From the NCBI GenBank assembly GCA_029882995.1, contig JAOUJV010000008.1, forward strand, positions 1 to 49,245: DNA of 49,245 nucleotides. Direction: 5' to 3'. The translations under genes were made by a program, and so were the position numbers. The stretch's first letter is position 1; every line of letters starts with the position of its first letter. The DNA is from Gammaproteobacteria bacterium. GTDB taxonomy: Bacteria > Pseudomonadota > Gammaproteobacteria > DAOVJZ01. The notes under the pieces are model-generated. The model worked only from the letters and a program-made list of their open reading frames with translations, did not search any database and was not told the origin of the DNA. This document shows positions 5,540 through 39,878 of the stretch, piece after piece.

Positions 5540-5682
5540 TGGTTCGACAAGCTCACCACGAACGGTTTAATATGCAGCCCGTCAAGTTCACCACGAACGG
5601 TTTAATATGCAGCCCGTCAAGTTCACCATGAGTAGTTTAATGTCTTTCCCGTTCGTCCTGAGCGCGAAGCAGTCGAAGGATA
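5540..5682. repeat. Dispersed palindromic repeat with 35-base tandem copies
   Basis: The spacer between hpnD and hpnC contains the same CACCACGAACGG and CCGTTCGTCCTGAGC arms seen at 8476, 8566 and 10890. Inside it, a 35-base unit starting CACCACGAACGG repeats at 5554 and 5589, and a decayed third copy starts at 5624. The right arm, CCGTTCG to GTCGAAGG, occupies 5649-5679. The internal tandem copies make this member longer than the 78-base form elsewhere. There are no coding signals. Confidence 0.8.
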
Positions 5683-8461: not shown

Positions 8462-8475
8462 ATTATTTTATATTC

Positions 8476-8553
8476 CCGTTCGTCCTGAGCGCGAAGCAGT
8501 CGAAGGACATTCATGGTTCGACTACTCGTTTTACTCGCGCTCACCACGAACGG
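8476..8553. repeat. 78-base palindromic repeat, copy 1
   Basis: This is a long imperfect inverted repeat. The outer arms are CCGTTCG and CGAACGG, the next GAGCGCGA and TCGCGCTC, and the inner AGCAGTCGAA pairs with TTCGACTACT apart from a mismatch. It is followed by a T run in the plus direction. It is nearly identical in sequence and identical in length to the element at 10890-10967. Because the flanking genes run on the minus strand, it cannot act here as their ordinary T-tailed terminator. Confidence 0.85.
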
Positions 8554-8565
8554 TTTTTTAGACCT

Positions 8566-10843: not shown

Positions 10844-10889
10844 CGGGAGGACCTGAGTGCAAAGCAGTCGAAGGGAGCATACTGAAGCC

Positions 10890-10967
10890 CCGTTCGCCCT
10901 GAGCGCGAAGCAGTCGAAGGGCATTCATGGTTCGACTGCTCGTTTTACTCGCGCTCACCACGAACGG
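10890..10967. repeat. 78-base palindromic repeat, copy 3
   Basis: Same length and nearly the same sequence as 8476-8553. The arms CCGTTCGCCCTGAGCGCGA and TCGCGCTC-ACCACGAACGG fold back, and AGCAGTCGAA pairs perfectly with TTCGACTGCT. A T run follows on the plus strand, so after fic it could double as a transcription terminator. A partial copy (CCTGAGTGCAAAGCAGTCG) lies just before it at 10852-10870. Confidence 0.85.
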
Positions 10968-10983
10968 TTTTTTTCAAAGCAAC

Positions 10984-12054: not shown

Positions 12055-13137
12055 ATGTGCATGGAGACTAAGAAAAAACACACAGAACGGGATATCCTCG
12101 ATCAGGCCTTACAAGCAGTAAAGCAGGAGACTGGTTTACGCATGCGTGTCAAAAAGACCAATGCCATACTCAACAACTATCAAGTTGATGCACTTATTCA
12201 GATAGACGACACCAAGCAGGTAGTCGCAGTAGAAATTAAAAAATGGGCTCAACAGGCAAATTTGGGAGCCTTAATAAATCAGGTTAAACAGCTACCCAAA
12301 AAAGGCATGCTGGTTGCGGATTACGTGAACCCGAAAATGGCAGAAAAATTACGCCATGAGGGTGTGCAGTTCATCGATACTGCCGGTAACGCGTTTATCA
12401 ATATGCCACCAGTCTATATGTATGTGACTGGCCATCGATGTGAGACGCCTCAATTTATGCCAACCGAAGGGGGAGCCAAACGCGCATTTGAGCCAACCGG
12501 CCTGAAGGTTATTTTTGCCTTCTTGTGTTATCCCGAGTTGGTGAATGCACCTTATCGTGAGATTGCAGAAAAAGCAGGTGTCGCAGTTGGTACCGTTGGT
12601 TGGGTGCTTAATGGTTTGAAAGCGGCAGACTTTATTCGCGACAAAGGTGACAATCAGCGCCGTCTGGTTCACGCTAAAAAATTATTAATGCGCTGGGTTG
12701 AAGTCTATCCCGAGAAGCTTCGGCCCAAGCAATTTATCGGTGAGTTTATCGCGGATGAACCAAATTGGTGGAAGAATATAAATATAAAGAAATACCATGG
12801 CTATTGGGGCGGCGAAATTGCGGCCGCCAAATATACACGTTATCTCAAACCACAGATTGCGACTCTTTATATACATGATGATGCACTGGCTCGACTTTTA
12901 GCCGATGGCCGTTTACGCAAAGCAACCACATGGCCTGGTGATGCACCGGGGGTGGTGAAGATTTATCGGCCATTCTGGAATGAAGATATTATTGAGCCAG
13001 ATATAGAAATAAAAAAAGGATACGTTCACCCCATTCTGGCGTATGCTGATCTCGTCGCAACGGGTGACACAAGGAATAGTGAAGTAGCACGGAGGATTTA
13101 TGACGAGCGGATTGCTCAATATTTCAGGGAAGGTTGA
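12055..13137 (+). CDS. AbiEi-like type IV antitoxin with nuclease-like N domain
   Basis: The 360-residue protein begins with a domain whose core reads VDALI...VAVEIKKW, giving D45, E60 and K62 in PD-(D/E)XK spacing. A winged helix follows at about residues 165-190 (YREIAEKAGVAVGTVGWVL), then a conserved C-terminal part. This matches the larger AbiEi-type antitoxin family found with nucleotidyltransferase toxins. No ribosome site precedes the ATG at 12055 (or the one at 12061), and the palindrome with a -10-like box ends only a few bases upstream, so the mRNA may be leaderless. The toxin gene overlaps the 3' end by 38 bases. Whether the nuclease-like core cuts DNA is unknown. Confidence 0.75.
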   Translation: MCMETKKKHTERDILDQALQAVKQETGLRMRVKKTNAILNNYQVDALIQIDDTKQVVAVEIKKWAQQANLGALINQVKQLPKKGMLVADYVNPKMAEKLRHEGVQFIDTAGNAFINMPPVYMYVTGHRCETPQFMPTEGGAKRAFEPTGLKVIFAFLCYPELVNAPYREIAEKAGVAVGTVGWVLNGLKAADFIRDKGDNQRRLVHAKKLLMRWVEVYPEKLRPKQFIGEFIADEPNWWKNINIKKYHGYWGGEIAAAKYTRYLKPQIATLYIHDDALARLLADGRLRKATTWPGDAPGVVKIYRPFWNEDIIEPDIEIKKGYVHPILAYADLVATGDTRNSEVARRIYDERIAQYFREG

Positions 13138-13948
13138 TGATCAAATCACAGAAGTATTTGAACTAGTAAATAGTATTTTAGCCGAACTGAAAATGCCCTA
13201 TGTTGTAGTCGGTGCATCTGCGAGAGACCTGGTTATGCATTATGGATATGGGGCTACGGTACAACGTGCTACGGAAGATGTGGATTTTGCCATTGAAGTT
13301 TCTGGTTGGAAGGTATTTGATATTCTTAAAAGCAAACTCGGTGAAAAAGGATTTCATACTACAAGTGCACCGCACCGACTCATTAGCCCAAATGATATGA
13401 TTATTGATATAGTGCCGTTTGGTGGTATTGAAGATGAACAAGCCTCTATCTCATGGCCACCAACAGAGGAGATAACAATGAATGTGCTGGGATTCAAGGA
13501 AGCTTGCGATCATGCACAATGGGTACGCATACAAGACGCACCTGAAATTGATATCCCTGTTGCCACGCCAGAGGGCATGGTTTTATTAAAAATGATTGCA
13601 TGGACAGATCGCGCCCGTGACTTACGAAAAAAAGATGCAAAAGACATCGCGTATTTATTATCGACGTATGAAACAATACCCGAAGTAAAAGAGACTCTAT
13701 ACACAGACACGGAAATAATAGAAACCTATGATTGGGACATTACGCAAGCTGCGGCTTATTTATTAGGTCAGCGTGTAAGCAATATAGCAAACTCAAACAC
13801 ATCTAAAACAATTAAAGCACTGGTTAATGAAGAAATAAAAGAGTTAAACATGGATTTATTGATCGAAGAGATGTGTACACATATTGGAAATGAGTTTGAA
13901 CGAAAATCACAATTAGTGTCTGCTTTTCTGGATGGGTTTAATAGTTGA
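13100..13948 (+). CDS. AbiEii-like nucleotidyltransferase toxin
   Basis: This 282-residue protein has the minimal nucleotidyltransferase signature: VVVGASARDLV at residues 35-45 (the GxxxRD-type loop) and TEDVDF at 58-63 supplying two metal-binding aspartates, with a third acidic strand near DMIIDIVPFG. Toxins of this class transfer nucleotides to RNA or other targets and cause reversible growth arrest. The start at 13100 lies inside the antitoxin gene after a strong GGAGG (about 13092), so the pair is translationally coupled. Orientation and overlap support a type IV toxin-antitoxin unit. Confidence 0.78.
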   Translation: MTSGLLNISGKVDDQITEVFELVNSILAELKMPYVVVGASARDLVMHYGYGATVQRATEDVDFAIEVSGWKVFDILKSKLGEKGFHTTSAPHRLISPNDMIIDIVPFGGIEDEQASISWPPTEEITMNVLGFKEACDHAQWVRIQDAPEIDIPVATPEGMVLLKMIAWTDRARDLRKKDAKDIAYLLSTYETIPEVKETLYTDTEIIETYDWDITQAAAYLLGQRVSNIANSNTSKTIKALVNEEIKELNMDLLIEEMCTHIGNEFERKSQLVSAFLDGFNS

Positions 13949-17091: not shown

Positions 17092-19824
17092 ATGAACTTT
17101 AAATTAACCCTATCACGCTTAGAGAGCCTCCTGTTAACTGCCTGTGACGATCTTCGTGGCAGTATGGATGCAAGTGAATACAAAGAATATATTTTTGGTA
17201 TGTTGTTCCTTAAACGTGCCAGTGATTTATTTGATCAACGCCAAGTTGAATTAAAAAAAGAATTCTCAGCCAAAGGCATGAGTGAAGCCGATATTGAAAT
17301 CGCGCTAAATGATCCAGATAACTATTCCGGTAAGTATTTCTTTGTTCCAGAACGTGCACGCTGGAACCAGGGCTGGGATGAAGAGGTTGTCGAAGATGGT
17401 GAAACAAAAATTATTCACCATGCTGCATTAAAACATGTGAAAGAAAATGTCGGAACCATGTTGAATAAAGCATTGGAATCAATCGAAGATGCAAACCTTG
17501 ATGCATTACAAGATGTACTTAAAGGCATTAACTTCAACCGCAAGATTGGACAACGTACTCTTGATGACGATACCCTTGCCAACTTTGTACAAAACTTTGA
17601 AAAAATCCCCCTTAAAGATGAGGATTTCGAATTTCCTGATTTGTTAGGTGCCGCTTACGAATGGTTAATCAAATACTTTGCGGACTCCGCCGGTAAAAAA
17701 GCCGGTGAATTTTATACACCTGCCGAAGTCGTTAGAGTCTGTGTAGAAATCTGTGATCCTAAAGAAGATATGCGTGTATATGATCCAACCTGTGGTTCTG
17801 GTGGTATGTTAATCCAGGCACGTGATTATTTACGCGAAAATGGCGGCAAACCAGAGAACCTTCCACTATTCGGTCAGGAAAAAATTGGCACTACCTGGTC
17901 TATTTGTAAAATGAACATGCTATTACATGGTATCTCTCACGCAGATATTCGCCAGGAAGATACCATACGAGAACCCCAGCACCTGAGCGAAGACAATGAG
18001 CTAAAACGTTTCAACCGTGTCTTGGCAAATCCACCTTTTAGTCAAAACTACATTAAAAAAGATCTCAAATTTCCTGGCCGCTTTTCAGTCATGATGCCAG
18101 AGAAAGGCAAGAAAGCTGATCTTATGTTTGTGCAACATATGTTGTCGGTTTTAAAACACGATGGGCGTTTAGCCACCGTCATGCCACACGGTGTGTTATT
18201 CCGCGGTGGTGAAGAACGCGCAGCACGAAAACACTTTATTGAACATGGCTACCTGGAAGCCGTTATCGGTCTACCCAGTAACCTGTTTTATGGTACAGGG
18301 ATTCCCGCCTGCATTCTGGTAATGAACAAGCAAGGTGCTGCCGAACGTGAGCATGTGCTTTTCATTAATGCCGACCGTGAATACCGCGAAGGTAAAGCAC
18401 AAAATCATCTTCGCCCTGAAGATATCGATAAAATCATTCATGCGTACCGTTCCGGTGAAGATGTACCGGCTTATGCGCGTAAAGTACCCAAAGCTGAAAT
18501 AGCAGATGAAGATTACAATTGTAATATCCGTCGCTATGTCGATAATGCACCGCCGCCAGAACCCCATGATGTACGCGCACATCTACACGGTGGTGTACCC
18601 ATTACCGAAGTTGATAGCCTGGAACACTTCTGGAGCAACTACGCACAACTGCGTGACGATAGTTTTATTCCTAGAGATGAAAAATATCTCGATATTGCAC
18701 CTATCATCAATGACAAGCGTGAGATTGCTGATTTTGTCAGCCTGCACCAGGGCGTGATGAATCGACAGGAACAGTTCATGCAACAATTGGAAAACTGGTG
18801 GCAGGCCAATCTACCCATTGTCGAAGCGCTGGCACCTGATCCAGAAAATCAGCATGAAACCTCAGGCAATGTTTACCATATGCGCAGTACCTTGTTAAAC
18901 AGCATTGCCGAAGAACTTGCCGGGCAAGCGCTGCTCACCGCCTCACAAGTGCGCGGTGCCTTTGCCAACTATGTGGATTTGCTCAAGGCTGACTTCAAAT
19001 CCATCGCCGCCAGTGGTTGGGGGCCGGAACTCATTCCCGACCAGGATATCCTGCAAAGCCAGTTCCCTAAAGTGTTGGAAGAGCTAGAGCAAGCCCAAAC
19101 CCGCTTGGCTGAATTGCAAGCCCTGTTTGCCGCTGCTGATGAAGAAGATTTTGAAGACACCGAAGACAGCGGCGTGTTACCCAGTAGCGAAGTCAAAAAC
19201 AAAAAAGACGAATTAAAACAATCTAATGCTGAATGGAAAGCCCAGCTTAAACTCATCAAAGATCTGGCCGGTAATATCTTCGCTGAAATTAAAGCCGCCG
19301 ATCACTTACCTAAAGGTAAGAAAAAAGGCACTTATTGCACAGAAGGCTTAACCCAAAAAGACCCTCAGTTTACCAATGGCAAACGTATTTTAGATTTGGC
19401 GGTACAAGTGAAGCATCAAAGTGAATATGCTGAAGCTATCACCGAAGCGATCACGCAAGCTCAGTTTGCCCATGAACGCGCCGAATCCATCACCCAAAGT
19501 CTGGCACGCCATAAACTGCTGGAAGATGAAGTCAAAGAACTCAGGGCTACTATCAAAGGCATTGAGAACAAACGTGATGAACTAGTTGAGAAGGCCCGCA
19601 AGGAAATCTCTATCGATAAAGCACGCACTGTTATTATTGAACGCCTGCGCCAGGTATTGATGAATACCTATCAAGCCTATTTGCGAGCAGACCAACGTGC
19701 TTGTATCAAAGCGATTGAGAATCTGTGGACGAAATATGCGGTAACCGCTAAGACCATAGAAGATGAACGCAATGCTGCTTCAAATCAGCTAAAAGAATTT
19801 TTGGTGGAGTTGGGGTATGAATGA
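17092..19824 (+). CDS. hsdM: Type I restriction-modification methylase subunit (HsdM), extended
   Basis: This N6-adenine methylase has 910 residues, far longer than the usual 500 or so. The helical N-terminal bundle is followed by the catalytic domain, with the SAM motif DPTCGSGG at residues 231-238 and the catalytic NPPF at 313-316. The block [19 protein letters not shown] precedes it, as usual. From about residue 500 there is a long extra region, including an acidic patch ([10 protein letters not shown]) and a C-terminal coiled coil (roughly 750-905). It pairs with HsdS to methylate the recognition site. Its 3' end overlaps hsdS by 8 bases. Confidence 0.93.
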
Positions 19825-21151
19825 CGATTCACCTAACGTTTCTATAAAACCTTTAGGAAAAATTGCAACGCTTCGACGCGGCATAACATATTCTGCTGAT
19901 ATGCTAGTTGAAAGAGATTTGGGTATTCCCTATATCAATATGAAGTCATTTAAAAAGGGTGGGGGATTCAACAAGGAGGGATTAAAGTATTTTAGCGGAC
20001 CACATGTGGTGGAAGATTTGGCTAAAGAAAATGATTTGCTTATAGCAAACACAGATGTGACTCTCGATGGTGATATTGTTGGTATCCCAGCATACTTGCC
20101 AGTTCATATAAGAAAAAACCCCGTTCTATTTTCTCACCATGTAACTAGGTTAAGGTTAGAAAATGAAATTAATTCTCATTTTTTATATTACTTGTTAAAT
20201 ACTGAGGAGTATCGAAGATGGATGCATAAGTATGCACGAGGTACTACCGTACTTATGCTTGACATGAATGCAATTAAACGCATTCCTATACGTTATCCTG
20301 CGACAATAAAAGTTCAAACTGAAGTTGTTAGGAGAATCGAGATTATTGATTACGCTATAGAAAAAACCGAGGCACTAATTAAAAAATATCAGAACATCAA
20401 AGTAGGTTTGATGCACGATCTATTTACCCGCGGCATCACCGCCGACGGCAAACTCCGTCCACCCAGAGAAGAAGCCCCGGAGTTATATCAAGAAACGCCT
20501 ATTGGTTGGATTTCGAAGGATTGGAATGTAATTCCATTGGGGCAAATATCAGACATAACCTCAGGTGTTACTCTTACTTCAAAAGTTACACCAGATCAAA
20601 CAATAATAGTACCTTATTTAAGAGTGGCTAATGTTCAAGATGGCTACTTGGATTTGTCAGAAATTAAAGAAATAAAGGTAAATAAAAAAACATTCATCAA
20701 TTTGTTATTACAGCCTGGTGACGTTCTCATGAATGAGGGTGGTGATTTCGACAAGCTGGGTAGAGGGACAGTATGGCAAGGTGAAATTGAACAATGTATA
20801 CATCAAAACCATGTGTTCAGAGTACGAACAGACAAAAATATTTTGCGATCATTCTATTTGGCTTATTGGTCTGAATCGAATTTCGGCAAAAAATATTTTA
20901 TTTTAAGTTCAAAACAGTCAACAAATCTGGCGTCAATAAATTCAACACAATTAAAAGCATATCCAATTGGGGTGCCTGATGATGGAGAGCAAATTCGCAT
21001 AGAAGAAAGAATAGATTCAATAAATAGTAAAATACAGTCGCTTAAAGATGAGCGAAATAAACTGTCAAATCAGAAATCAGGTTTAATGCACGATCTGCTT
21101 ACTGGCGAAGTCGAAGTAAAGGTTGATGAACCTGAGGCAGCCCATGTCTGA
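19817..21151 (+). CDS. hsdS: Type I specificity subunit (HsdS)
   Basis: The 444-residue subunit has two target-recognition domains, each closed by a conserved helix. The first ends in [19 protein letters not shown] near residue 200 and the second in [13 protein letters not shown] near the C terminus. The duplicated GLMHDL blocks are the central and distal conserved regions of HsdS. It defines which bipartite sequence is methylated or cut. The start (ATGAATGA) overlaps hsdM by 8 bases and the end overlaps hsdR by 8 bases. The two recognition domains are more AT-rich than the conserved blocks, as expected for swapped modules. Confidence 0.92.
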
Positions 21152-24100
21152 ATACACGGAAGTAGAACAGCCTTTTCTTGAGCAGCTTCATGGGCTAGGT
21201 TGGAACCCTATTGACCAGGGGCCGGATATTCCCCAAGACCCAAGTAAAAGCTTGCGCCAGAATTTCCGCCAATGGCTGTTACCCGATGTTTTTAACCAGG
21301 CTATTTCTGCCATTAATAAAACTGCTTCTGGTGAAGAGTGGCTTACCAAAAAACAACTGCAAGACTTGCAGGATGAAATCTTGCGCCAACCTAACCGGAC
21401 TTTATTAGAAGCCAACGAAGCCATTCAAAAGCTGTTATTTAAAACCCAGGTGGATGTGAATGAAGCCACCGGTGAGCAAGACCCTGTTGTTAAGTTAATC
21501 GACTTGTCTAACCCGGAAAATAATCAGTTTCATGCCATTAATCAATTCCGTATCGACACACCGGGTTGTGTTAAGCAGTTCATCATTCCTGATATTGTGT
21601 TGTTTGTGAATGGCATACCTTTGATCGTTGTGGAATGTAAAAAGGGTGGGCCAACCTGTGCTAACCCCATGGCGGAAGCCTTTGAACAATTACAGCGCTA
21701 TATGAATAAGCGCAAGGCCACTCATCAACAAGGTTTAAAAGAAGGTGAACCACGACTTTTTCATACTGCCTTGATGGTGGTGCGTACTTGTGGTCTGGAG
21801 GCAGATTACGGCACTATTACCTCAGGCCTTGAGCATTTCTTTCCTTGGAAGACCCAATGGCCTAATGATGACTCAACAGCTAAAGATATGAATCAGCAAC
21901 AGCAACTTATCAGCGGCATGCTGTCGAAATCTAATTTGCTGAGTATCTTGCGTACTTCTAGTGTATTTATGGATACCGATGGTGGTCCACGGATTAAAGT
22001 GGTTTGTCGTTATCAACAGTTTAGAGCAGCCAATAAAATTGTTGAGCGTTTACGACATGGAAAAAATGTGGCTGATAAAAGTGGCGTGGTGTGGCACACG
22101 CAAGGTTCGGGTAAAAGCCTGACTATGGTATTTGTGGCACGTATGTTACGTGTCTCAAAAGATTTAAATGATTACAAAATACTGCTTATTAATGATCGTG
22201 TAGATCTTGAGGATCAACTAGCAGAAACTGCAACATTGATCGGTGGCCGAATTAATAGTATTGAAAGCACCCAATCTTTGCGTGAGCACCTGGCAACTGA
22301 TAGCTCCGATATTAATATGGTGATGGTGCATAAATTTCAGGTGCGCGAGCAAAGTTTACCCTTGAAAGTTGCAGAAGCACTTGGCACCTATCTAGGTATG
22401 CCAACTGGGCAAACGTTTGGTGTAGTGAATGATTCATCACGTATTGTATTGATGATTGATGAAGCACATCGTACTCAAGGCTCAGATCTGGGTGATAATA
22501 TATTTGAAGCATTTCCAAATGCGGCACGGATTGCTTTTACCGGCACGCCGCTAATTACAGATAGACATGGTGAGAAAAAGACGCATAAACGATTTGGTGA
22601 ATATATTGATACTTACCGTTTAATGGATGCTGTTAACGATGGAGCTACTTTACAGATACTGTATGAAGGTCGTACTGCTGATTCGGCTTTAAATGATAAA
22701 TATGGTTTTGAGACCCAGTTTGAAAATTTATTTAAAGATCGTAGTGAAGAAGAACTACTGGCAATCAAAAAGAAGTATGGAGCTACTGGTGATATTTTAG
22801 AAGCCGAACAACGTATTAATGCCATTGGGAAAGATATGGTCAATCACTATCTTGAACATATCTTTCCCAATGGTTTTAAGGCACAGGTGGTTTGTCATTC
22901 TAAATTAGCAGCAGTGAGATACCAGACAGCAATTCATGCAGCATTACAAGAGAGGATCGAACAACTAAGATCTGTGCCTAACCCAGATGAAGAGCTTATA
23001 AAGAAAATATCATTTTTAAAGGCCGTAGTTGTTATATCAAGTGATGGTACGAATGAAGCTGCCTATATCACTGAAGCACGCAAGCAAGCCAAAGCATGGA
23101 ATGCAGTTGATAATTTTTGTCGTTCTTTCGATATGGATGATCCTGACAAGGCAGATACCGGCATTGCCTTTTTGATTGTGTGCGATATGTTAATGACCGG
23201 TTTTGATGCACCTATTGAGCAAGTGATGTATATCGATAAAAAGATTCGAGAACACACTTTGTTGCAGGCTATTGCCCGAACCAATCGTGTTAAACAAGGT
23301 AAAAAGCGTGGCTACGTGGTGGATTATATTGGTTTGACTGAAAACATGACTGAAGCACTCACATTGTATGCGGCGGCTGATGAACAACAAGAATTGGCGC
23401 AAGGACTAAAAAGCATCACCTCAGAGATGCCAGTTTTGGAAGAACGCTACCAGCGTTTATTGCAATTATTCTCAGAAAACAAGGTGGCACAAGTTAAAGA
23501 CTTTGTAGAAGGTAAATTACTAAATATTGAAGCCGATGCCGCCATTGTGCATGAGGCAGTAAAGTTGCTTAAAGATGAAAAAACCCGGGCAGATTTTGAT
23601 GTTTACCTGAAAAAATTCCTGATGAGCATGGATATTATATTACCGCATCAAGCAGCAAATCCTTTTCGGGTTCCAGCCAAACGTTTTGGCTATATTCTAA
23701 GAGTGGCCAAGGAACGCTATAAAGATACAAGTCTAAATTTGGGTGATGCAGGTGAAAAAATTAAAGATTTAATTAATGAACACTTGATTAGTCTTGGCAT
23801 TAATCCAAAGGTGCCGCCAGTTGAATTATTATCAGAAGATTTTATCGAGAATTTGAATAAGCATGCAGCGGGAAATGCAGAGGCTAAGGCCAGCGAAATG
23901 GAACATGCTATTCGTAAACACTGCACGGTACATCATAATGAGGATCCAGCATTTTATAAGAGCTTGTCAGAGAAAGTTGAAAATCTGATCGACCAGTATC
24001 AAGATCAATGGGAGAAATTGGCGGAAGAATTAGAAAAACTTCGTGTTGAAGCTATAGAAGGAAGAAAAGCAGGCGAAGAAGGGATGAGCAAAGAAGCGAC

Positions 24101-24410
24101 AACCTTCTATGAACACATCGCAAACGAAGCTTTTGACAACGGTGAAGTACCATCTGAAGAAAAAGCAAAGATGAAGGTACTAATGGAAGCTATAGTAGAA
24201 ACATTGCAAGACAGTATTGGTAGTATCGATTTTTGGAATAATGCTGACAAACAAAAGAAAACCCGCAGTGACATAAAAACAGCATTGACTTTAACTGGTA
24301 TTGATCAGCTAAAACAAAAACGCGAGAGGGTGGCTGTAGAAATCATGAAGCTGGCTAAAAACAGACATGATGAATTGATTAAAGGCACATATGGAGGTGG
24401 TGAAAAATGA
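21144..24410 (+). CDS. hsdR: Type I restriction endonuclease subunit (HsdR)
   Basis: This 1088-residue motor-nuclease begins with a PD-(D/E)XK domain (D150, E164-x-K166 in IIPD...VVECKKG). Superfamily 2 helicase motifs follow: GSGKS at 321-325, IDEAH at 438-442 and FTGTP. Late motifs include LMTGFDAP and QAIARTNR. The C-terminal third is helical. I start at ATG 21144 because GAGG lies 6 bases before it and it gives an 8-base overlap with hsdS like the hsdM-hsdS overlap; an ATG at 21126 is in frame but has no ribosome site. HsdR translocates DNA and cuts unmodified invaders. Confidence 0.93.
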   Translation: MSEYTEVEQPFLEQLHGLGWNPIDQGPDIPQDPSKSLRQNFRQWLLPDVFNQAISAINKTASGEEWLTKKQLQDLQDEILRQPNRTLLEANEAIQKLLFKTQVDVNEATGEQDPVVKLIDLSNPENNQFHAINQFRIDTPGCVKQFIIPDIVLFVNGIPLIVVECKKGGPTCANPMAEAFEQLQRYMNKRKATHQQGLKEGEPRLFHTALMVVRTCGLEADYGTITSGLEHFFPWKTQWPNDDSTAKDMNQQQQLISGMLSKSNLLSILRTSSVFMDTDGGPRIKVVCRYQQFRAANKIVERLRHGKNVADKSGVVWHTQGSGKSLTMVFVARMLRVSKDLNDYKILLINDRVDLEDQLAETATLIGGRINSIESTQSLREHLATDSSDINMVMVHKFQVREQSLPLKVAEALGTYLGMPTGQTFGVVNDSSRIVLMIDEAHRTQGSDLGDNIFEAFPNAARIAFTGTPLITDRHGEKKTHKRFGEYIDTYRLMDAVNDGATLQILYEGRTADSALNDKYGFETQFENLFKDRSEEELLAIKKKYGATGDILEAEQRINAIGKDMVNHYLEHIFPNGFKAQVVCHSKLAAVRYQTAIHAALQERIEQLRSVPNPDEELIKKISFLKAVVVISSDGTNEAAYITEARKQAKAWNAVDNFCRSFDMDDPDKADTGIAFLIVCDMLMTGFDAPIEQVMYIDKKIREHTLLQAIARTNRVKQGKKRGYVVDYIGLTENMTEALTLYAAADEQQELAQGLKSITSEMPVLEERYQRLLQLFSENKVAQVKDFVEGKLLNIEADAAIVHEAVKLLKDEKTRADFDVYLKKFLMSMDIILPHQAANPFRVPAKRFGYILRVAKERYKDTSLNLGDAGEKIKDLINEHLISLGINPKVPPVELLSEDFIENLNKHAAGNAEAKASEMEHAIRKHCTVHHNEDPAFYKSLSEKVENLIDQYQDQWEKLAEELEKLRVEAIEGRKAGEEGMSKEATTFYEHIANEAFDNGEVPSEEKAKMKVLMEAIVETLQDSIGSIDFWNNADKQKKTRSDIKTALTLTGIDQLKQKRERVAVEIMKLAKNRHDELIKGTYGGGEK

Positions 24411-25114
24411 ACGCAAGACGTGTTCGAGATATTGAATATCAGCTTTTATCTGGTAGTGAGCGAAAAACAACTGATATTGTTATTGAGCGAAATGGGGAAG
24501 TTGTTGTACGACCCCCAAAAAATTGCAGTCCAGAAAAAGTAGATGCTGTAGTTGAAAGTAAGAGGATGTGGATTTATAGAAACCTTGCTGAGTGGCGAGA
24601 TTTGAATGCGACTGCCGTTGTGCGCGAATGGGTCAATGGTGAAACTTTTTTGTATTTAGGAAGATCTCATCGATTGTCTTTGATGGCAAATCAGGACAGC
24701 GCTTTAAAATTGAAGGATGGTAGATTTTGTTTAAACCGCAATTTAATTGATGAAGGCGGAACTGATGCAGCCAAACATGCCTTTGAGCAATATTATATCG
24801 TCAAGGGTTTACAGAGAATAAAAAACAGAGTGGAGTACTACACACCTAAAGTTGGTGTTAGACCAACATCTATTAAAGTTAAAGAAATGGGTTATCGGTG
24901 GGCTAGTTGCGGTAAAAATAACAGCTTAAGTTTTCATTGGAAGTGCATGATGGCCCCGCCTAAAATTATTGACTATATAATTGTTCATGAACTTTGCCAT
25001 ATCCACAAACAAAATCATTCTGATGCGTTTTGGAATGAAGTGGATAAAGTAATGCCTGATTACAGAGAGCGGAAAGAGTGGTTAAAATTAAACGGTGCCA
25101 ACCTGGATTTATAA
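24407..25114 (+). CDS. YgjP-like zinc metallopeptidase of type I operon
   Basis: The 235-residue protein has the metal motif HELCH (194-198) followed by H204 (HSDAFW), and the family block GYRWASCGKNNSLSFHW just before it. This is the YgjP/M48-related (DUF45) metallopeptidase family, commonly encoded beside type I restriction genes. It overlaps hsdR by the tetranucleotide ATGA, so it is translated with it. Its job in restriction is not established; one guess is proteolytic control of HsdR. Confidence 0.82.
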   Translation: MNARRVRDIEYQLLSGSERKTTDIVIERNGEVVVRPPKNCSPEKVDAVVESKRMWIYRNLAEWRDLNATAVVREWVNGETFLYLGRSHRLSLMANQDSALKLKDGRFCLNRNLIDEGGTDAAKHAFEQYYIVKGLQRIKNRVEYYTPKVGVRPTSIKVKEMGYRWASCGKNNSLSFHWKCMMAPPKIIDYIIVHELCHIHKQNHSDAFWNEVDKVMPDYRERKEWLKLNGANLDL

Positions 25115-26302: not shown

Positions 26303-27700
26303 GTGAATAAAAAAACAGCCATATATGATTCTCCTGCCAGCAAGGATATTTCAATTGAAAAATTAGTTGAAATATTTAAAGGCCTTGGTGTTAGTCGAGT
26401 TTTGTATAAATCATTATCCCCCAATGACAATAGCAAGAACCAGCCTTATCTGGCAGGCCATCTTACAGACTTAGGCTTTATTCCTACAGGCGAAATCACT
26501 GAATCCAAATCCACTTCTGGTAAAACCAAAGATCCAAAACGACAAATAAAATATACAGCCTCTCTTGATTATTCCTGGGTTTCTTCAGATGGACAATTAT
26601 TTACAGCCCCGGATGCAAAGCTTATTTATTACCCGCAATATCCTGAAGTCAGGCTTTCCGGTTTTGTTACCAAATGCAATTTTGATATGGGCGGTTGGAT
26701 GGATCCTTTAAAAAAAGGAAGAAGCTCTGGCCGGGTTTTGTTTTTCGGTCTAAAGGATACAGGTGAAATATTGGCTTACCTGGCTGTACCTGATACCCGT
26801 ATTGCAAAAGAAATACATGATTATCCCTCAGTTACTGTAAGTGGTGTTTTTAATGAAATTGCCTTGATACAAAGTGATCGTACAGGTGATTCAAAAGATA
26901 TTCTGATTTCCGAGTTATGCCGAATTCATCAAAAAGAGTGGATTGCTGGTAAAAAACTTAATCCAGATAGAACGTTTAAGGAATATAAGGCACAAAATGG
27001 TGGCGGGTATACGATGGAGGCTGAACTTGGCATTATACCGAACGGTATTGCCGAGCCTGATTTTATGGGGTGGGAAATCAAACAGTTTGGCGTAAAAAAA
27101 TGCCACCTGATTAACAGCAAGCCATTGACAGTCATGACGCCTGAGCCTGATGGTGGTTTTTATGTTGAACAAGGTGTTGAAGCTTTTGTTCGCAAGTATG
27201 GATACACCTCAACTGACAAGCCCGATAGATATGATTTTACTGGTCGTCATTTTTCAGGAACGGTTTGTGATAAATCAGGGTTGCTTCTTGTAACACAAGG
27301 TTATGATCCTGAAACCGACACGATTACGGATGGAGGAGGTAGTATTGCCCTTTTGGATAATAAAGGTAATCCAGCATCAATATGGACATTTGCCAAGATT
27401 ATGGCGCACTGGAAAAGAAAACATGCAAAGGCGGCATATATTCCATCACTTTCCAGAAATGAATCTGATAAATCCCGCTGTTATTCATACTGCAATAATG
27501 TTCGCCTTTTTGAGGGAACAACCTTTAACAAACTGCTTAAAGGTATTGCAGAGAATCACGTTTATTATGATCCAGGTATTAATATTAAAAATGCTGATAC
27601 AAAGCCTGTTTCAAAAAGACGGAGCCAGTTCAGGATAAAATCATCAGAATTACACCACCTGTACCATTCTCAGGAAGATATAGACGTTTTGAAGCCGTAA
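26303..27700 (+). CDS. MvaI/BcnI-family type II restriction endonuclease
   Basis: The 465-residue protein has an unrecognised N-terminal part (1-195), then the MvaI/BcnI catalytic core with EAELGIIPNGIAEPDFMGWEIK. The catalytic set E239, D253, E258, K260 has exactly the spacing recalled for MvaI (E36, D50, E55, K57). MvaI cuts CC^WGG and BcnI CC^SGG as monomers. The adjacent Dcm-type methylase favours CCWGG. The start is a GTG at 26303 with no strong ribosome site, so the N terminus is uncertain. It is about twice the length of MvaI because of the N-terminal extension. Confidence 0.82.
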   Translation: MNKKTAIYDSPASKDISIEKLVEIFKGLGVSRVLYKSLSPNDNSKNQPYLAGHLTDLGFIPTGEITESKSTSGKTKDPKRQIKYTASLDYSWVSSDGQLFTAPDAKLIYYPQYPEVRLSGFVTKCNFDMGGWMDPLKKGRSSGRVLFFGLKDTGEILAYLAVPDTRIAKEIHDYPSVTVSGVFNEIALIQSDRTGDSKDILISELCRIHQKEWIAGKKLNPDRTFKEYKAQNGGGYTMEAELGIIPNGIAEPDFMGWEIKQFGVKKCHLINSKPLTVMTPEPDGGFYVEQGVEAFVRKYGYTSTDKPDRYDFTGRHFSGTVCDKSGLLLVTQGYDPETDTITDGGGSIALLDNKGNPASIWTFAKIMAHWKRKHAKAAYIPSLSRNESDKSRCYSYCNNVRLFEGTTFNKLLKGIAENHVYYDPGINIKNADTKPVSKRRSQFRIKSSELHHLYHSQEDIDVLKP

Positions 27701-27786: not shown

Positions 27787-29040
27787 ATGGATGCAAAGGT
27801 CACTACCCGCAACTTACTCAAGATTGCAATGGAACGTTACTCACCAGTTGATATTGCCAGAAAGCTGAATGTTACCCCTAAGACGGTTCGAAATTGGGAG
27901 GTTAGGGAAGATGGGCCTCCAGAATATCGTACATCTCAGCTGCAGGGATTACTGTTTGGTAATGAACCATCTAATGAAGGTGACTTTACCTTTATTGATC
28001 TGTTCGCAGGAATTGGTGGAATGCGTAAGGGGTTTGAGAAGAATGGTGGAAAATGTGTTTTTACCAGTGAGTGGGATAAATACGCAATAAAGACCTATTG
28101 TGACAATTTTAAAGTCGATCATCAGATTGTCGGAGATATAACGCAGGTATCTGAAAAGGATATTCCAGATCACGACGTACTCCTTGCCGGTTTTCCGTGT
28201 CAGCCGTTTTCAATTGCGGGTGTTTCTAAAAAAAATTCCTTGGGAAGAAAACATGGTTTTAAGGACAAGACACAGGGAACACTGTTTTTTGATGTTAAAA
28301 GAATCATAAAAGAAAAACAGCCGAAAGCCTTCTTGCTGGAAAATGTCAAAAACCTCAAAAGCCATGATAAAGGAAGAACATTCCAGGTTATCCAGGAAAC
28401 ACTACAGGATGAACTGGGTTATAGAATTTTCCCAATGGTTGTAGACGGCAAGGGTTTTGTACCCCAGCATCGTGAACGTATATATATTGTAGGCTTCAGA
28501 GAAGATACTGATTTTTCCTGGGATGCATTCAGAAAAGTAAAGAAAGATAAAATGGTAATGGATGATATCTTTCATTCACAGGATGGCTCTGAAAAACCAG
28601 AAAAGGACTACACAACAGGAAAGTATGCCAAGGTAAACGAAAAATATATTCTCAGCGATAAACTCTGGCAATATCTTTATGACTATGCGGCCAAGCACAA
28701 GGCTAAAGGTAATGGTTTTGGTTACGGTATGGTAACGAAGAATAGTGTTGCCAGGACCTTGTCAGCAAGATACTACAAGGATGGTTCAGAAATACTTGTA
28801 TCAAGAGGTCGTGGTAATCCGCGCAGATTAACGCCAAGAGAATGTGCGCGGCTTATGGGTTATCCAGACAGTTTTAATATTCCAGTTTCAGACACCCAGG
28901 CCTACAAGCAGTTTGGTAATTCGGTTGTTATGCCTGTCATTGCCGAGATTGCCAGAATCATGAAGCCACACATTATTGAACTTAAGGAAGAGGAAGCAGA
29001 AGCAATTCATCAGGGAAGGCTGGCATTGGCCAGTGGTTGA
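27787..29040 (+). CDS. dcm: Dcm-type DNA cytosine-5 methyltransferase
   Basis: The 417-residue enzyme has a small helix-turn-helix-like N terminus (SPVDIARKLNVTPKTVRNW, residues 19-37), then all C5 methylase motifs: DLFAGIGG (71-78), PCQPFS with the catalytic cysteine (137-142), ENVK (185-188) and QHRERIYIVG (227-236). Long stretches, including GVSKKNSLGR and the target-recognition region ARYYKDGSEIL and GNGFGYGMV, match E. coli Dcm closely, so the target is probably CCWGG with the inner C methylated. It lies between the MvaI-like nuclease and vsr and overlaps vsr by 8 bases. Confidence 0.92.
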   Translation: MDAKVTTRNLLKIAMERYSPVDIARKLNVTPKTVRNWEVREDGPPEYRTSQLQGLLFGNEPSNEGDFTFIDLFAGIGGMRKGFEKNGGKCVFTSEWDKYAIKTYCDNFKVDHQIVGDITQVSEKDIPDHDVLLAGFPCQPFSIAGVSKKNSLGRKHGFKDKTQGTLFFDVKRIIKEKQPKAFLLENVKNLKSHDKGRTFQVIQETLQDELGYRIFPMVVDGKGFVPQHRERIYIVGFREDTDFSWDAFRKVKKDKMVMDDIFHSQDGSEKPEKDYTTGKYAKVNEKYILSDKLWQYLYDYAAKHKAKGNGFGYGMVTKNSVARTLSARYYKDGSEILVSRGRGNPRRLTPRECARLMGYPDSFNIPVSDTQAYKQFGNSVVMPVIAEIARIMKPHIIELKEEEAEAIHQGRLALASG

Positions 29041-29479: not shown

Positions 29480-29485
29480 CACGAA

Positions 29486-29629
29486 ATGTCCTACCTAAGT
29501 ATCTTCATTAACGACAAACTCGCCTTCGAGTATGATCTTTCAAAAACACTCGATGACAGCCAGCTTGCGTTTCTCGACAAGATGGATAGTGTAACTACCG
29601 CAGTTGTGGCTGTAATTGAGCATGTGTGA
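29486..29629 (+). pseudogene. Truncated 5' copy of the 110-residue gene at 33068
   Basis: The first 34 codons (29486-29587) match the start of the complete gene at 33068 at roughly nine of ten bases (MSYLSIFINDKLAFEYDLSK against MSYLSIFINDQLAFEHDLSK). Homology stops abruptly after DKMD. Thirteen unrelated codons then lead to a stop. Upstream bases do not match. It is therefore a 5' fragment left by an old duplication or insertion. Confidence 0.85.
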
Positions 29630-29656: not shown

Positions 29657-29833
29657 TTGGAAAATGAATACTTTTCTTTAATTTGTGCATATCGTGAAAA
29701 ATTTGATGAAGGCCCACCTACTTGGGAGTTAACTCAAGAGGAAGCTATGCAGAAAATGAAAGAGGCACTAAAAACAGGTGAAAAAATGAAAGGGTTTGAT
29801 ATGAGCAAGTTGCCACCGGACACATTGTTATGA
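29657..29833 (+). CDS. 58-residue protein coupled to the GIY-YIG nuclease
   Basis: A TTG start at 29657 follows GGGGA by about 7 bases. The product is acidic and helical (ELTQEEAMQKMKEALKTGE, ending GFDMSKLPPDTLL). Its stop overlaps the ATG of the nuclease gene as ATGA, the classic coupling signal. I do not recognise the family. Size, charge and coupling to a nuclease fit an antitoxin or accessory subunit, but that is inference. Confidence 0.55.
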   Translation: MENEYFSLICAYREKFDEGPPTWELTQEEAMQKMKEALKTGEKMKGFDMSKLPPDTLL

Positions 29834-30291
29834 GTATTAAATTTGATTCAATTATTAAAGAGGTTAAAGAAAAATATACACAATTAGTGTTGTCGAAAAA
29901 ATTCAAATATTCTGATTTACCTAAAAGACTTCCTTCAGCAGGCATTTATTTCTTTTCTGAGGATGGAATCCCTCTCTATGTGGGGAGGACAAATAACCTA
30001 AAAAAAAGACTGCAGTACCATACTCGTAACAACCATAACCAGGCAACATTTGCTTTTCTTCTGGCAAGACATGAAACTGGAAATATCAAAGCCTCATATA
30101 CTAAAAAAGGTTCGCGTTCAGATTTATTAAAAGATAATGTTTTTAGAGAGGCGTTTGATAGAGCTCGTGAACGCATTTGCCATATGGATATTCAGTTTGT
30201 TGAGGAGTCTGACCCGATAAACCAAACAATTCTGGAGGTTTATGCTGCATTTGAATCAGGAGCTAAATATAATAATTTTGACAACCATTAA
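29830..30291 (+). CDS. GIY-YIG nuclease family protein
   Basis: The 153-residue protein has the superfamily motifs: GIY at residues 38-40, LYVGRTNNLKKRL with YVG at 50-52 and the catalytic-type arginine following, and a late glutamate in ILEVYAAFESG. It is a stand-alone GIY-YIG domain with an extra helical N terminus, so it is neither UvrC nor a homing endonuclease. The start overlaps the upstream 58-residue gene by ATGA. A 57-base gap leads to the next nuclease gene. The substrate is unknown; the setting suggests phage defence. Confidence 0.8.
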   Translation: MSIKFDSIIKEVKEKYTQLVLSKKFKYSDLPKRLPSAGIYFFSEDGIPLYVGRTNNLKKRLQYHTRNNHNQATFAFLLARHETGNIKASYTKKGSRSDLLKDNVFREAFDRARERICHMDIQFVEESDPINQTILEVYAAFESGAKYNNFDNH

Positions 30292-30348
30292 GCAAGATAT
30301 TGTTTAATTTTTTGCAATTGTGTGGAGCTAAATTACAGGGGTATTTAA

Positions 30349-31407
30349 ATGGCAATTTATCAAATTAATAATGAGAAAATAATTCCCATTAAAGAAACCT
30401 CGTTTGCAGAACGTGGTTTAAAAGAGAGAACAGATCTCCAGCGTCTTCTCAAACAACAGGTCGAGATAATATCACCTGATACCTTGGTCATTTCAGAAGA
30501 ATTTGGCGAATGGGATGAAAGCAGGCGTCGCATTGATATCCTTGCTATTGATAAGGCAGCAAACATTGTTGTTATAGAACTTAAACGCACAGAAGATGGT
30601 GGCCATATGGAGTTGCAAGCAATTCGATATGCTGCCATGGTTTCCACGCTTACTTTTGAACGAGTTATTGAGATATACAGTAAATATCTTGGTGCAAACA
30701 ATATAGAAGGTGATGCCAGAGAGAAAATTCTCGATTTCCTTGAATGGGAAGAAGCGGATGAAGATCAGTTCGCACAGGATGTTCGAATTGTTTTGGCATC
30801 TGCAGAGTTCTCAAAAGAATTAACTACAGCAGTGATGTGGCTTAATGAAAGGAATCTGGATATTCGTTGTGTTCGTCTTAAACCATATAAAGATGGTGAT
30901 CGTACGTTACTAGATGTACAGACTGTTATCCCACTCCCTGAAGCAGAAGACTACCAGGTTAAAATAAGAGAAAAACAGCAAAAAGAAAGGCAATCTCGGC
31001 GAACTAATAGGGATACTACACGTTATGATGTCACAATTAATGGTGCAACAGTTGCTAATCAACCTAAGAGAGGCGTGATGTTTCATGTTATTAAGCCCAT
31101 TATTGATTCTGGTGTCACTCCTGAAAAAGTTGCCGAAATAATTTCTTGGCGAAAGAATAATCTTTTCTATAGTTTTGATGAGGAATTAGATGAAGAACAG
31201 GTGAGCACCATATTAATGGAAGAAGATAAAGGTGGAATTATTCCAAAACCAAGGCGTTATTTCAGTAAGGAAGATGAGTTGTTTCATGTGAATGGTAAAA
31301 CCTACATTTTGACAAACCAATGGGGTGATCGAACTATTGAGGCTGTTGATATACTAAGTAAAGCTTTTTCTAAATTGAATATAAAAGTAGAGCCTGTCTC
31401 AGAATAA
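30349..31407 (+). CDS. NucS-like PD-(D/E)XK nuclease
   Basis: The 352-residue protein has a DUF91/NucS-like core: SRRRIDILAIDKAANIVVIELKR, giving D63, E77-x-K79, with the helix GGHMELQAIRYAAMVSTL after it. That core is found in nucleases acting on branched or mismatched DNA and in restriction-like proteins. A basic linker (about 205-225) leads to a C-terminal domain with repeated short segments that I do not recognise. It lies 13 bases upstream of the NERD gene and probably shares its transcript. Confidence 0.72.
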   Translation: MAIYQINNEKIIPIKETSFAERGLKERTDLQRLLKQQVEIISPDTLVISEEFGEWDESRRRIDILAIDKAANIVVIELKRTEDGGHMELQAIRYAAMVSTLTFERVIEIYSKYLGANNIEGDAREKILDFLEWEEADEDQFAQDVRIVLASAEFSKELTTAVMWLNERNLDIRCVRLKPYKDGDRTLLDVQTVIPLPEAEDYQVKIREKQQKERQSRRTNRDTTRYDVTINGATVANQPKRGVMFHVIKPIIDSGVTPEKVAEIISWRKNNLFYSFDEELDEEQVSTILMEEDKGGIIPKPRRYFSKEDELFHVNGKTYILTNQWGDRTIEAVDILSKAFSKLNIKVEPVSE

Positions 31408-31420
31408 ACGCAATATAAGA

Positions 31421-32467
31421 ATGATCATAAAAAACAAAGACGGATGCCAGGATCAGATCGACTATTTATCAGATCTGATGGAGCGAGATTTACCCGCAGA
31501 CAAAAAAGGTCTTATTGAACGCGAACTAAAAAATCTTTATTCAGGCAAAAAGGGAGAGGAAACATCTGCCTATTATCTAGATTTTGATTTAAAGAAGACC
31601 AAGAATTGGGCGTTAATCCATGACCTCCGTATTGAGCATGATGGCGATGTGGCACAAATAGACCATTTACTGATTGGTAGAATGATGGATATTTATGTTA
31701 TTGAATCAAAGAATTTTAATTATGGTGTTTCTATATCAGATGATGGGGATTTTAGTTTTTTTTATAAAAAAAAACCCTATGCAATTCCATCGCCGATAAC
31801 ACAAAACGATCGACACATCCGGTTGTTGGATAAATTTCTAACAGATAATGATTTGTTGCCTAAAAGACTCGGTATTACATTAAAGCCATATTATCGAAAT
31901 ATTGTTCTTATTTCGCCCACATCGAGGTTAACCAAGCCTAAAAAGGGTATTTATGACTGTAGCACCGTAATGAAGGCAGATAAATTCACGGAACGATTGA
32001 ATCTTGATCTTGATGAAAATTCATTAAAAAATATGGTGGGAATGGCAAAGATAATATCTCAGAAGAGCTTATGTGAATTTGCTGAGAAGTTGGCGTTATT
32101 ACATAAACCAGTCACCATCGATTATGTTGCCAAGTTTGGTTTGAAAGATTCCAGTAATGTTGTTACTGAATTGGTGGACGATTATCATGTTAATCCTCCC
32201 TTATGTCCTAAATGCAATAAAGAAATGGTTGTCCGCAACACTAAAAAAGGGAAGAATATTGGAAAAAAGTTCTGGGGGTGTTCAGATTTCCCGACGTGTC
32301 GTGGTGTTATTGATATTACCCTACCTGATACATCATCTCCTTTATGTCCTAAATGTGGTGAGAATATGGTAAAGCGGACATCTAAAAAAGGGAAAAATAT
32401 AGGAAAAGAATTTTGGGGATGTTGTAAGTTTCCTAAATGTTTTGGTTCAATTCAGATAGAGAGCTAA
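31421..32467 (+). CDS. NERD nuclease-like protein with two topoisomerase zinc ribbons
   Basis: The 348-residue protein starts with a NERD domain: GKKGEE (residues 42-47), AQIDHLLI with D81, and VIESKNF with E95-x-K97, a PD-(D/E)XK relative. The C terminus has two tandem copies of the topoisomerase-type zinc finger, each C-PKC...FWGC...C (starting LCPKCNKEM and LCPKCGENM). Zinc ribbons of this type bind single-stranded DNA. The preceding gene is 13 bases away. A truncated GFA-family gene begins only 2 bases after its stop. Confidence 0.82.
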   Translation: MIIKNKDGCQDQIDYLSDLMERDLPADKKGLIERELKNLYSGKKGEETSAYYLDFDLKKTKNWALIHDLRIEHDGDVAQIDHLLIGRMMDIYVIESKNFNYGVSISDDGDFSFFYKKKPYAIPSPITQNDRHIRLLDKFLTDNDLLPKRLGITLKPYYRNIVLISPTSRLTKPKKGIYDCSTVMKADKFTERLNLDLDENSLKNMVGMAKIISQKSLCEFAEKLALLHKPVTIDYVAKFGLKDSSNVVTELVDDYHVNPPLCPKCNKEMVVRNTKKGKNIGKKFWGCSDFPTCRGVIDITLPDTSSPLCPKCGENMVKRTSKKGKNIGKEFWGCCKFPKCFGSIQIES

Positions 32468-32469
32468 CA

Positions 32470-32544
32470 ATGAATGAGGCAACGCTAAAAGGCTCATGCC
32501 TATGCGATTCTGTCCAATACGAAGTCATCGGCGAGGCACAATAG
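32470..32544 (+). pseudogene. Truncated GFA-family gene fragment
   Basis: The 24 codons from ATG 32470 read MNEATLKGSCLCDSVQYEVI and resemble the start of the complete GFA-family gene at 37723 (MPATLKGSCLCGSVQYEVTG), with roughly four of five bases shared. A stop (TAG) follows GEAQ, before the zinc-binding CxC-x2-C block, so no functional protein can result. Confidence 0.8.
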
Positions 32545-33005: not shown

Positions 33006-33067
33006 AAATAGTTGGGTCAGAGTAAAAATTCACACAACCAACAAGATTGTTTAAGAGAAGTATAAAA

Positions 33068-33400
33068 ATGTCATACCTAAGTATTTTCATTAACGACCAG
33101 CTCGCCTTCGAGCATGATCTTTCAAAATCACTTGATGCCAATCAGCTTGCGTTTCTCGACAAGATGGATGGGGATATGGATCGTGGTTTCAGGATTTCTG
33201 GCGAGATGATCAGTGAGCCGGATGCAAAACAAAAGGCGACCTTTGTTGCGATGAACCTGCTGCGTGCCCTGCAACAGGAAGATGATGCCAAGATTGCGGT
33301 TGCCTGTGCCTATATTGGTCATCGTTTGCCGCATGTGATTGAGGTGCGTGCCAGTGATCAGGGTGATCGTATTCATATCGAGTTTGTCGAAGAGCATTAA
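33068..33400 (+). CDS. Conserved 110-residue protein of unknown function
   Basis: The protein starts MSYLSIFINDQLAFEHDLSK and is soluble and mildly acidic, with an alpha-helical centre (KQKATFVAMNLLRALQQ) and a C-terminal strand pair. I do not recognise the family. It is likely real because a decayed partial copy of its 5' end exists at 29486-29629 and the substitutions between them often fall on third codon positions. I chose the ATG at 33068, not the upstream alternative at 33047, because the duplicate also begins there. Confidence 0.65.
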   Translation: MSYLSIFINDQLAFEHDLSKSLDANQLAFLDKMDGDMDRGFRISGEMISEPDAKQKATFVAMNLLRALQQEDDAKIAVACAYIGHRLPHVIEVRASDQGDRIHIEFVEEH

Positions 33401-37722: not shown

Positions 37723-38136
37723 ATGCCTGCAACATTAAAAGGTTCTTGTCTGTGCGGTTCTGTTCAATATGAAGTCACCGGCGAGCCGCAACGTTTTTAT
37801 CATTGCCATTGTCAGCGTTGCCGCAAGGCAACGGGTACCGGCCATGGGAGTATTGTGATGATGACGCCAGTCACTGGTATTACCTGGATCAAGGGTGAAG
37901 ACCTGTTGGGGCGTTACAAGGTGCCGGAGGCAGAGCGGTTTTATACTTGTTTTTGTACTCAGTGTGGTGGTCCGATGCCACGCACTGTGCCCGAGCTGGA
38001 TGCGGTGTTTATTCCGGCGGGTTCGCTGGATACCGAATCGCCGATTCCGGCGCAGGCGCGTATTTTCTGGGATTCGCGTGCCGAGTGGTCTTGTTCGGAT
38101 GCGTTGCCGCATTTTGCGGAGTACCCGCCGGCGTAG
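37723..38136 (+). CDS. GFA family (CENP-V/GFA) zinc protein
   Basis: The 137-residue protein has the GFA fold motifs GSCLCGSVQYEV (residues 7-18), CHCQRCRKATG (zinc cysteines C28, C30, C33) and a later CFCTQCGG pair. The family includes glutathione-dependent formaldehyde-activating proteins, but most members have no proven activity. A good ribosome site (GGGAG) precedes the ATG. A truncated relative lies at 32470-32544. Confidence 0.82.
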   Translation: MPATLKGSCLCGSVQYEVTGEPQRFYHCHCQRCRKATGTGHGSIVMMTPVTGITWIKGEDLLGRYKVPEAERFYTCFCTQCGGPMPRTVPELDAVFIPAGSLDTESPIPAQARIFWDSRAEWSCSDALPHFAEYPPA

Positions 38137-38382: not shown

Positions 38383-39033
38383 ATGACACCTCTGACTGAA
38401 ATCATCCTCGACTCAGGCAATGCGGATCGAGTTTTATCTGTTCAACAGCTTGAACGCTTGCTGGGTGGTAGCAGTGCGCGTCGCTATGGGTTGGTGAACA
38501 GAGCGTTGAAAGCGGGTGAGTTGCTAAAGGCGCGACGGGGCTTGTATGTATTGGCTGAAAAATATCGTCAACATCCGCTTCATGAATTTGTTTTGGCTCA
38601 GCAATGGGTGCCGGGTAGCTATGTTTCAGCAGAGACAGCATTGAGCTTTCATAACTGGATTCCTGAAGGAGTGCATAGCGTTGTGAGCATGACGCTTGGT
38701 GGCAAGTCGATGGAATTTACGCATGAGGTTTTTGGAAAATTCGAATTTTGTCGAATGACTGTGAAGCAAGGTTATTTTTTGCAAGCGGTGGCAAGGCATG
38801 AATTGCAAAACCAGATCGCGTTGATTGCAGAACCTGTGCGGGCATTGCTGGATATGGTGTATCTGCGCAAGCTGAAATGGCAGGGACTGGATTATTTGTT
38901 AGAGGGATTGCGCATTGATGAGCAAGCGTTAAAGGCTGTACCATCTTTGAGCATTACAATGTTGCTGGACGTATATAAAGGGAAAAGGGAACAACTGTTC
39001 ATTGAAGAACTGCTAAGGGAGCTAGGGTTATGA
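38383..39033 (+). CDS. abiEi: AbiEi-family type IV antitoxin
   Basis: The 216-residue protein has an N-terminal winged helix (LSVQQLERLLGG, then LVNRALKAGELLKARRGLYVL), which is the usual AbiEi opening. A C-terminal antitoxin domain with SAETALSFHNWIPE and the PVRALLDMVYLRK block follows. It represses the operon and neutralises the toxin. The toxin ATG overlaps its stop as ATGA. This is a smaller, more classical protein than the antitoxin at 12055. Confidence 0.85.
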   Translation: MTPLTEIILDSGNADRVLSVQQLERLLGGSSARRYGLVNRALKAGELLKARRGLYVLAEKYRQHPLHEFVLAQQWVPGSYVSAETALSFHNWIPEGVHSVVSMTLGGKSMEFTHEVFGKFEFCRMTVKQGYFLQAVARHELQNQIALIAEPVRALLDMVYLRKLKWQGLDYLLEGLRIDEQALKAVPSLSITMLLDVYKGKREQLFIEELLRELGL

Positions 39034-39878
39034 TTGATTTGATTCAAAAGCGATTGCTGGATTATGGCGCAGGTAATGCGTTGGAAGAAGAGAATGCACT
39101 CAAGGAAATCGCGCAGGAGATTATGTTATTTGCATTGTGGCAAGCCGGTTTTTTTGAGGTGGGCGCATTTCAAGGCGGGACAAGCTTGAGGATTTTGCAT
39201 GGTATGTCACGTTTTTCGGAAGATATTGATTTTATTATGCGCAAGCCTGATCCGGAATTTGTATGGCAGCCTTATCTGGACAAGCTTGCGAGCACATGTA
39301 ATGAGTTTGGTATTGAGCCGGAAGTACTCGACAGAAATAACATGGATAAAAACATCAAGGCGGCAGTGATTAAGGATACATCCATTGCCAACCAGCTTAA
39401 TTTAAGTTTTGTAAATAATACGGGTGCTCGTCAATTAAAGATTAAACTGGAAATTGATTGTAATCCTCCTGCGGGTTCCGGTTTTGATTATACCTACATG
39501 GATTTTCCTGTTGATTTTGAAGTATGTCATCAGGATCTGGCTAGCAATTTTGCATTAAAAACACATGCCTTGTTATGTCGACCTTATATTAAAGGTAGAG
39601 ATTGGTATGATTTTAACTGGTATGTTGCACAAGGGGTGAAGCCCAATCTTTTATTATTGCAAAATGCGTTGGTTCAATATGGCCCATGGAAAGGGCAAGA
39701 AATCAATGTTGATGAGAAATGGTTGCTCACAGAATTAGGGAAAAAGATTGCTTCAATCCAATGGCAAGATGCGGCAGAGGATGTTAAACGCTTTTTACAA
39801 CCATTAGAGCAGAAGAGTCTGTCGATTTGGAGTGAAAAATTGTTTATGAGTAAGCTTGAAAAGCTGAAGCGGTTATAA
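39030..39878 (+). CDS. abiEii: AbiEii-family nucleotidyltransferase toxin
   Basis: The 282-residue toxin has the DNA polymerase beta-like signature GGTSLR (49-54) and SEDIDF (63-68) with both metal aspartates, and the later conserved LCRPYIKGRDWYDFNWY block. AbiEii toxins arrest growth and provide phage abortive infection. Translation is coupled to the antitoxin through ATGA. All key residues are present, so it should be active. Confidence 0.88.
   Translation: MIDLIQKRLLDYGAGNALEEENALKEIAQEIMLFALWQAGFFEVGAFQGGTSLRILHGMSRFSEDIDFIMRKPDPEFVWQPYLDKLASTCNEFGIEPEVLDRNNMDKNIKAAVIKDTSIANQLNLSFVNNTGARQLKIKLEIDCNPPAGSGFDYTYMDFPVDFEVCHQDLASNFALKTHALLCRPYIKGRDWYDFNWYVAQGVKPNLLLLQNALVQYGPWKGQEINVDEKWLLTELGKKIASIQWQDAAEDVKRFLQPLEQKSLSIWSEKLFMSKLEKLKRL

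Follow-up and report, generated by a model that had tools for sequence, protein, structure and literature searches.

A run of three different predicted nuclease genes at the edge of a candidate defence island in a gammaproteobacterium

A GIY-YIG core with a common set of catalytic residues is found in UvrC, Cho and T4 endonuclease II. The GIY-YIG nuclease domain occurs also in CMoRE (PD-T4-3), a type IV restriction enzyme that is defined by a GIYxY-YIG motif together with a C-terminal sensing domain (PMC12923530). The mismatch endonuclease NucS/EndoMS has a catalytic domain of the PD-(D/E)XK type. The PDC class has been described (PMC10855318), where PDC-S11 is reported solely as prevalent in resistant strains. 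Finally, stand-alone GIY-YIG (URI) and NERD genes tend toward the boundaries of Dnd defence systems, and separate roles have been proposed for them (PMC10853773).

We have analysed a window of 49,245 nucleotides from a gammaproteobacterium (contig JAOUJV010000008.1 of assembly GCA_029882995.1), this being the whole stretch of DNA to which our coordinates refer. It contains a run of three genes predicted to encode nucleases, preceded by a small gene. We conclude that these are very probably independently acquired, stand-alone nucleases of an island edge that lie side by side by chance, and not the components of a joint system. The arrangement resembles the Dnd-island boundaries in that URI (GIY-YIG) and NERD genes lie at the edge of a modification or restriction locus, but no Dnd genes were identified, and the neighbour in the window is a restriction-modification (RM) system of the MvaI/BcnI type.

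The gene row and its predicted products

Within the run there are four open reading frames.

29657-29833, + strand: orphan gene of 58 amino acids, with a TTG start and an acidic product (pI 4.7), overlapping the next gene by ATGA
29830-30291, + strand: single-domain GIY-YIG nuclease gene, 153 amino acids (Pfam, alignment, AlphaFold model)
30349-31407, + strand: NucS/EndoMS-like PD-(D/E)XK gene, 352 amino acids, corresponding to PADLOC PDC-S11 (profile match, motif, fold)
31421-32467, + strand: NERD gene with two tandem zinc ribbons, 348 amino acids (Pfam)

The gap between the GIY-YIG and NucS-like genes is 57 bases, and that between the NucS-like and NERD genes is 13 bases. Reading of the frames thus agrees with the preliminary description in placing four genes on one strand with this overlap and these gaps. 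Its further statement, that three different predicted nuclease families lie in a row between two truncated gene duplicates, is borne out by the domains and by comparison of the repeats. In a promoter scan, promoter-like sites were no commoner than in shuffled sequence, and so give no guide to the transcription of the run; terminators likewise were not above chance.

The 153-amino acid protein matches Pfam GIY-YIG (PF01541) over the cut-off with E = 3e-6, and the catalytic positions Y, Y, R, H, E and N are conserved in an alignment of 15 sequences. The AlphaFold model has a pLDDT of 88, and its eight best fold matches in the PDB are UvrC GIY-YIG domains. Catalytic positions and fold together place the protein in the GIY-YIG superfamily. 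It has the core and catalytic residues in common with UvrC, Cho and T4 endonuclease II, but it is a single domain and lacks the partner domains of UvrC. The nuclease domain is shared with CMoRE, whereas the C-terminal modification-sensing domain and the GIYxY-YIG motif are absent. The sequence GIYFF and the length of only 153 amino acids rule out a CMoRE identity, and the fold match of the model to CMoRE is weak (E = 0.73). The closest relatives are found on rhizobial plasmids, lying among unrelated genes, and the family occurs also in scattered genomes.

The NucS-like protein is, by its profile match, already catalogued as the PADLOC single-gene phage-defence candidate PDC-S11. Residues 1-348 align with positions 1-343 of the 347 in the profile (E = 3.3e-140), which places it in the family over its length, and no difference was found between PDC-S11 and the window protein. 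The neighbours of PDC-S11 differ from locus to locus. D63, E77 and K79, forming the D...ExK motif, are invariant in the protein and its relatives, and the top PDB fold matches of the model are EndoMS/NucS (5gke and 2vld); motif and fold are those of a PD-(D/E)XK nuclease. Assignment as a NucS/EndoMS orthologue was rejected, as both scores fall below the curated cut-offs (Pfam NucS_C, E = 2.6e-4, 21.4 against 24 bits; NCBIfam NucS/EndoMS, 22.4 against 216 bits). The catalytic domain is common to the mismatch endonuclease and the window protein, but just 150 or so of the 352 residues align, and the C-terminal half of the window protein differs.

The last protein contains a NERD domain (Pfam E = 1.7e-19, 70.8 bits against a cut-off of 22.1), which makes it a member of that family, followed in Pfam by two copies of the topoisomerase-type zinc ribbon Zn_ribbon_Top1. 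The DNA encoding the ribbons is a tandem repeat (32196-32282 against 32337-32423, with 77.5% identity). No solved structure related to the NERD protein by sequence was found.

The island and its flanking duplicates

The run forms the 3′ edge of a predicted defence island that is low in G+C. The G+C content is 34-41% over about 25-33 kb, compared with 46-51% in much of the flanks, and it is up again at about 49-51% by 33-35 kb. The island and its borders contain the following features.

16116: AbiD, a defence-island gene
17092-25114: type I RM locus, which includes a YgjP-like gene
26303-27700, + strand: MvaI/BcnI-type restriction enzyme, directly upstream of the run
27787-29040, + strand: C5-cytosine methylase
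ending at 29479, + strand: Vsr
29484-29587, + strand: 5′ fragment of a duplicated gene of 110 amino acids, with a full copy at 33068-33400
32479-32535, + strand: 5′ fragment of a GFA-family gene, with a full copy at 37723-38136 (Pfam GFA)

Some further features of the region can be recorded. The YgjP-like metallopeptidase gene (24407-25114) has an ATGA overlap with the end of hsdR, and is probably an accessory in the type I RM locus. The MvaI/BcnI-type enzyme has an N-terminal part of approximately 200 residues outside the Pfam domain, and comparison by sequence gave no solved relative. CCWGG occurs 52 times where 65 are expected, a mild depletion that does not establish the target of the RM system (98 of 100 shuffled sequences had at least 52). 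Loci of the AbiE type (type IV toxin-antitoxin) lie on both sides of the island, at 12055-13948 and 38383-39878; one of these comprises AbiEi_2 and AbiEii, and the other AbiEii behind a 216-amino acid gene lacking a Pfam match. An 85-base repeat (8475-8559 and 10889-10973, 96% identical), of which a 35-base piece is found again at 5646-5680, lies outside the main annotated genes.

The first gene fragment comprises the initial 104 bases of the duplicated sequence, starting 2 bases ahead of the ATG, and is 90% identical to 33066-33169. The second is 82% identical to 37729-37785 over 57 bases. Both start at or near the start codon, directly after the stop codon of Vsr and of the NERD gene, respectively, a placement that suggests insertion of the island genes at the starts of host genes. 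Among the repeats at the island edge the gene-start duplicates alone stand out, the other repeat families being short.

The duplicated starts, with full copies of both genes downstream, and the low G+C content might be taken to indicate that the genes are the cargo of one mobile element inserted between them. We consider this unlikely. At the edges we found neither an integrase or transposase nor a tRNA or a terminal repeat common to both, a search for structural RNAs or tRNAs serving as integration sites found none, and the two fragments, differing in their identity to the full copies, need not share one age. A single congener is available (77% complete), in which 32.6-38.2 kb finds only scattered matches of 59-192 bases with no collinear locus, and in which no NucS-like or NERD match was found.

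The small gene and the neighbours of relatives elsewhere

The 58-codon reading frame looks to be coding. Its codon score of 0.37 bits per codon is higher than that of every one of 123 open stretches read in a wrong frame within the island and falls inside the range of true genes, and its codon usage matches that of the island genes. Searches of Pfam, PADLOC, NCBIfam and PHROGs, and of 369 genomes of the class, plasmids, phages and viral contigs, gave no credible homologue of the protein. The preliminary description had proposed it as an antitoxin or specificity factor of the GIY-YIG enzyme. Formation of a toxin-antitoxin or nuclease-inhibitor pair would be in keeping with the ATGA overlap, the coding signal and the position of an acidic small protein ahead of a basic nuclease (pI 9.4). 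However, no small frame resembling it is found upstream of any of 36 GIY-YIG relatives, including those that are 57-64% identical (L014, L015, L016 and L031). The proposed role is therefore left without comparative support, the conserved two-gene pairing expected of a type II toxin-antitoxin system was not found, and such a pair is improbable.

We have sought relatives of the three nucleases and analysed their neighbours with the profiles of all three families. The GIY-YIG sample comprises 36 distinct loci (five plasmid loci out of 10 plasmid records, 25 from genomes and six from viral contigs), the NucS-like sample 53 (three from plasmids, 10 from genomes of the class, 11 from further genomes of the phylum and 29 from viral contigs), and the NERD sample about 16, drawn from genomes of the class and of the phylum and from a single viral contig. 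Locus depth is often just 1.5 kb, or is ended by a contig edge. Raw profile counts were 63 for the NucS-like, 36 for the GIY-YIG and 31 for the NERD family, and these include some places fetched twice and some matches to the zinc ribbon only.

No stretch among these loci holds two of the three families. At the level of whole genomes, none of 369 in the class has both NucS-like and full NERD matches (10 and 9 other genomes, respectively, carry one), and the same is true of 399 genomes of the phylum (12 and 7). About 0.2 shared genomes would be expected by chance in each set, so these zeros are weak alone, and it is the adjacency counts that carry the argument. The nearest relatives each have other neighbours. 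One NucS-like relative sits between HsdR- and HsdM-like genes of a type I RM locus (L090), and another has a GajB-like helicase close by (L088). Of the NERD relatives, one is in the vicinity of HsdM (L094) and one in that of a type IIG enzyme (L101).

Two NucS-like relatives lie immediately behind short-Argonaute operons beside brxL, with gaps of 9 bases (L011) and 32 bases (L084). In these loci (L011:2549-5053 and L084:5977-8606) the PDC-S11 relatives are 57-58% identical to the window protein. The two Argonautes are just 29% identical and their partner domains differ (REase/SMEK in one case, TIR in the other), so the association of PDC-S11 with a short-Argonaute operon beside BREX genes may be a repeated one. 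The remaining PDC-S11 loci that we collected gave no pAgo relative, and this is a lead that lies outside the window.

These data bear directly on the suggestion that the run is a multi-nuclease unit. The preliminary description had regarded the NucS-like and NERD genes as the firmest pair, and had held that the unit would fall if homologues almost never occurred together and neither phage protection nor toxicity were seen. In the gene-neighbourhood search, which bears on the first half of this condition, homologues of the three nucleases were never found together, and the NucS-like/NERD pair has neither a stretch nor a sampled genome in common. A lineage-specific, newly assembled defence operon, the products of which act jointly on phage DNA, would be consistent with the single strand, the short gaps and the setting in a defence island, and co-translation would accord with the 13-base gap and with the overlap at ATGA. 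But no pair recurs in the loci examined, nor did we find the recurrence together in unrelated genomes that marks a multi-gene defence system. With a single, incomplete congener and such shallow loci a young assembly of this kind keeps some probability, though a very small one. About as improbable is a lineage-restricted defence unit in which a GIY-YIG nuclease, a single-domain member of a so far uncharacterised family, would be under the control of the orphan acidic protein.

Probable stand-alone nucleases at an island edge

Several lines of evidence lead us to favour independently acquired nucleases acting separately. In the loci collected no two families share a stretch, the nearest relatives have different surroundings, PDC-S11 stands in PADLOC as a candidate of one gene only, and the G+C content is low. 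The pattern reported for Dnd boundaries (PMC10853773) fits this picture. Most likely the genes encode separate nucleases, each of a kind already recognised, with an activity and an anti-phage role predicted from its family. A defence function, which the preliminary description had inferred for the run as either one operon or two adjacent modules, is retained to the extent that predicted nucleases, one a catalogued candidate, lie in a defence island; it does not extend to a functional unit.

We propose that the island was acquired horizontally, and that three separately mobile nuclease genes together with a small orphan gene would have come to be adjacent at its 3′ edge. Each enzyme would most likely work alone on DNA. 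The GIY-YIG protein would be a small DNA endonuclease, and the PDC-S11 and NERD/zinc-ribbon proteins would probably be single-gene or back-up nucleases directed against invaders. The common strand and short gaps may lead to shared transcription, by virtue of position only and in the absence of a conserved complex.

PDC-S11 is uncharacterised so far as we found, and our search gave no role for the short GIY-YIG family of rhizobial plasmids and scattered genomes; each offers a modest target. More generally, operon-like spacing in a defence island appears to be a poor guide to function, when three nuclease genes only 13-57 bases apart can have unrelated histories.
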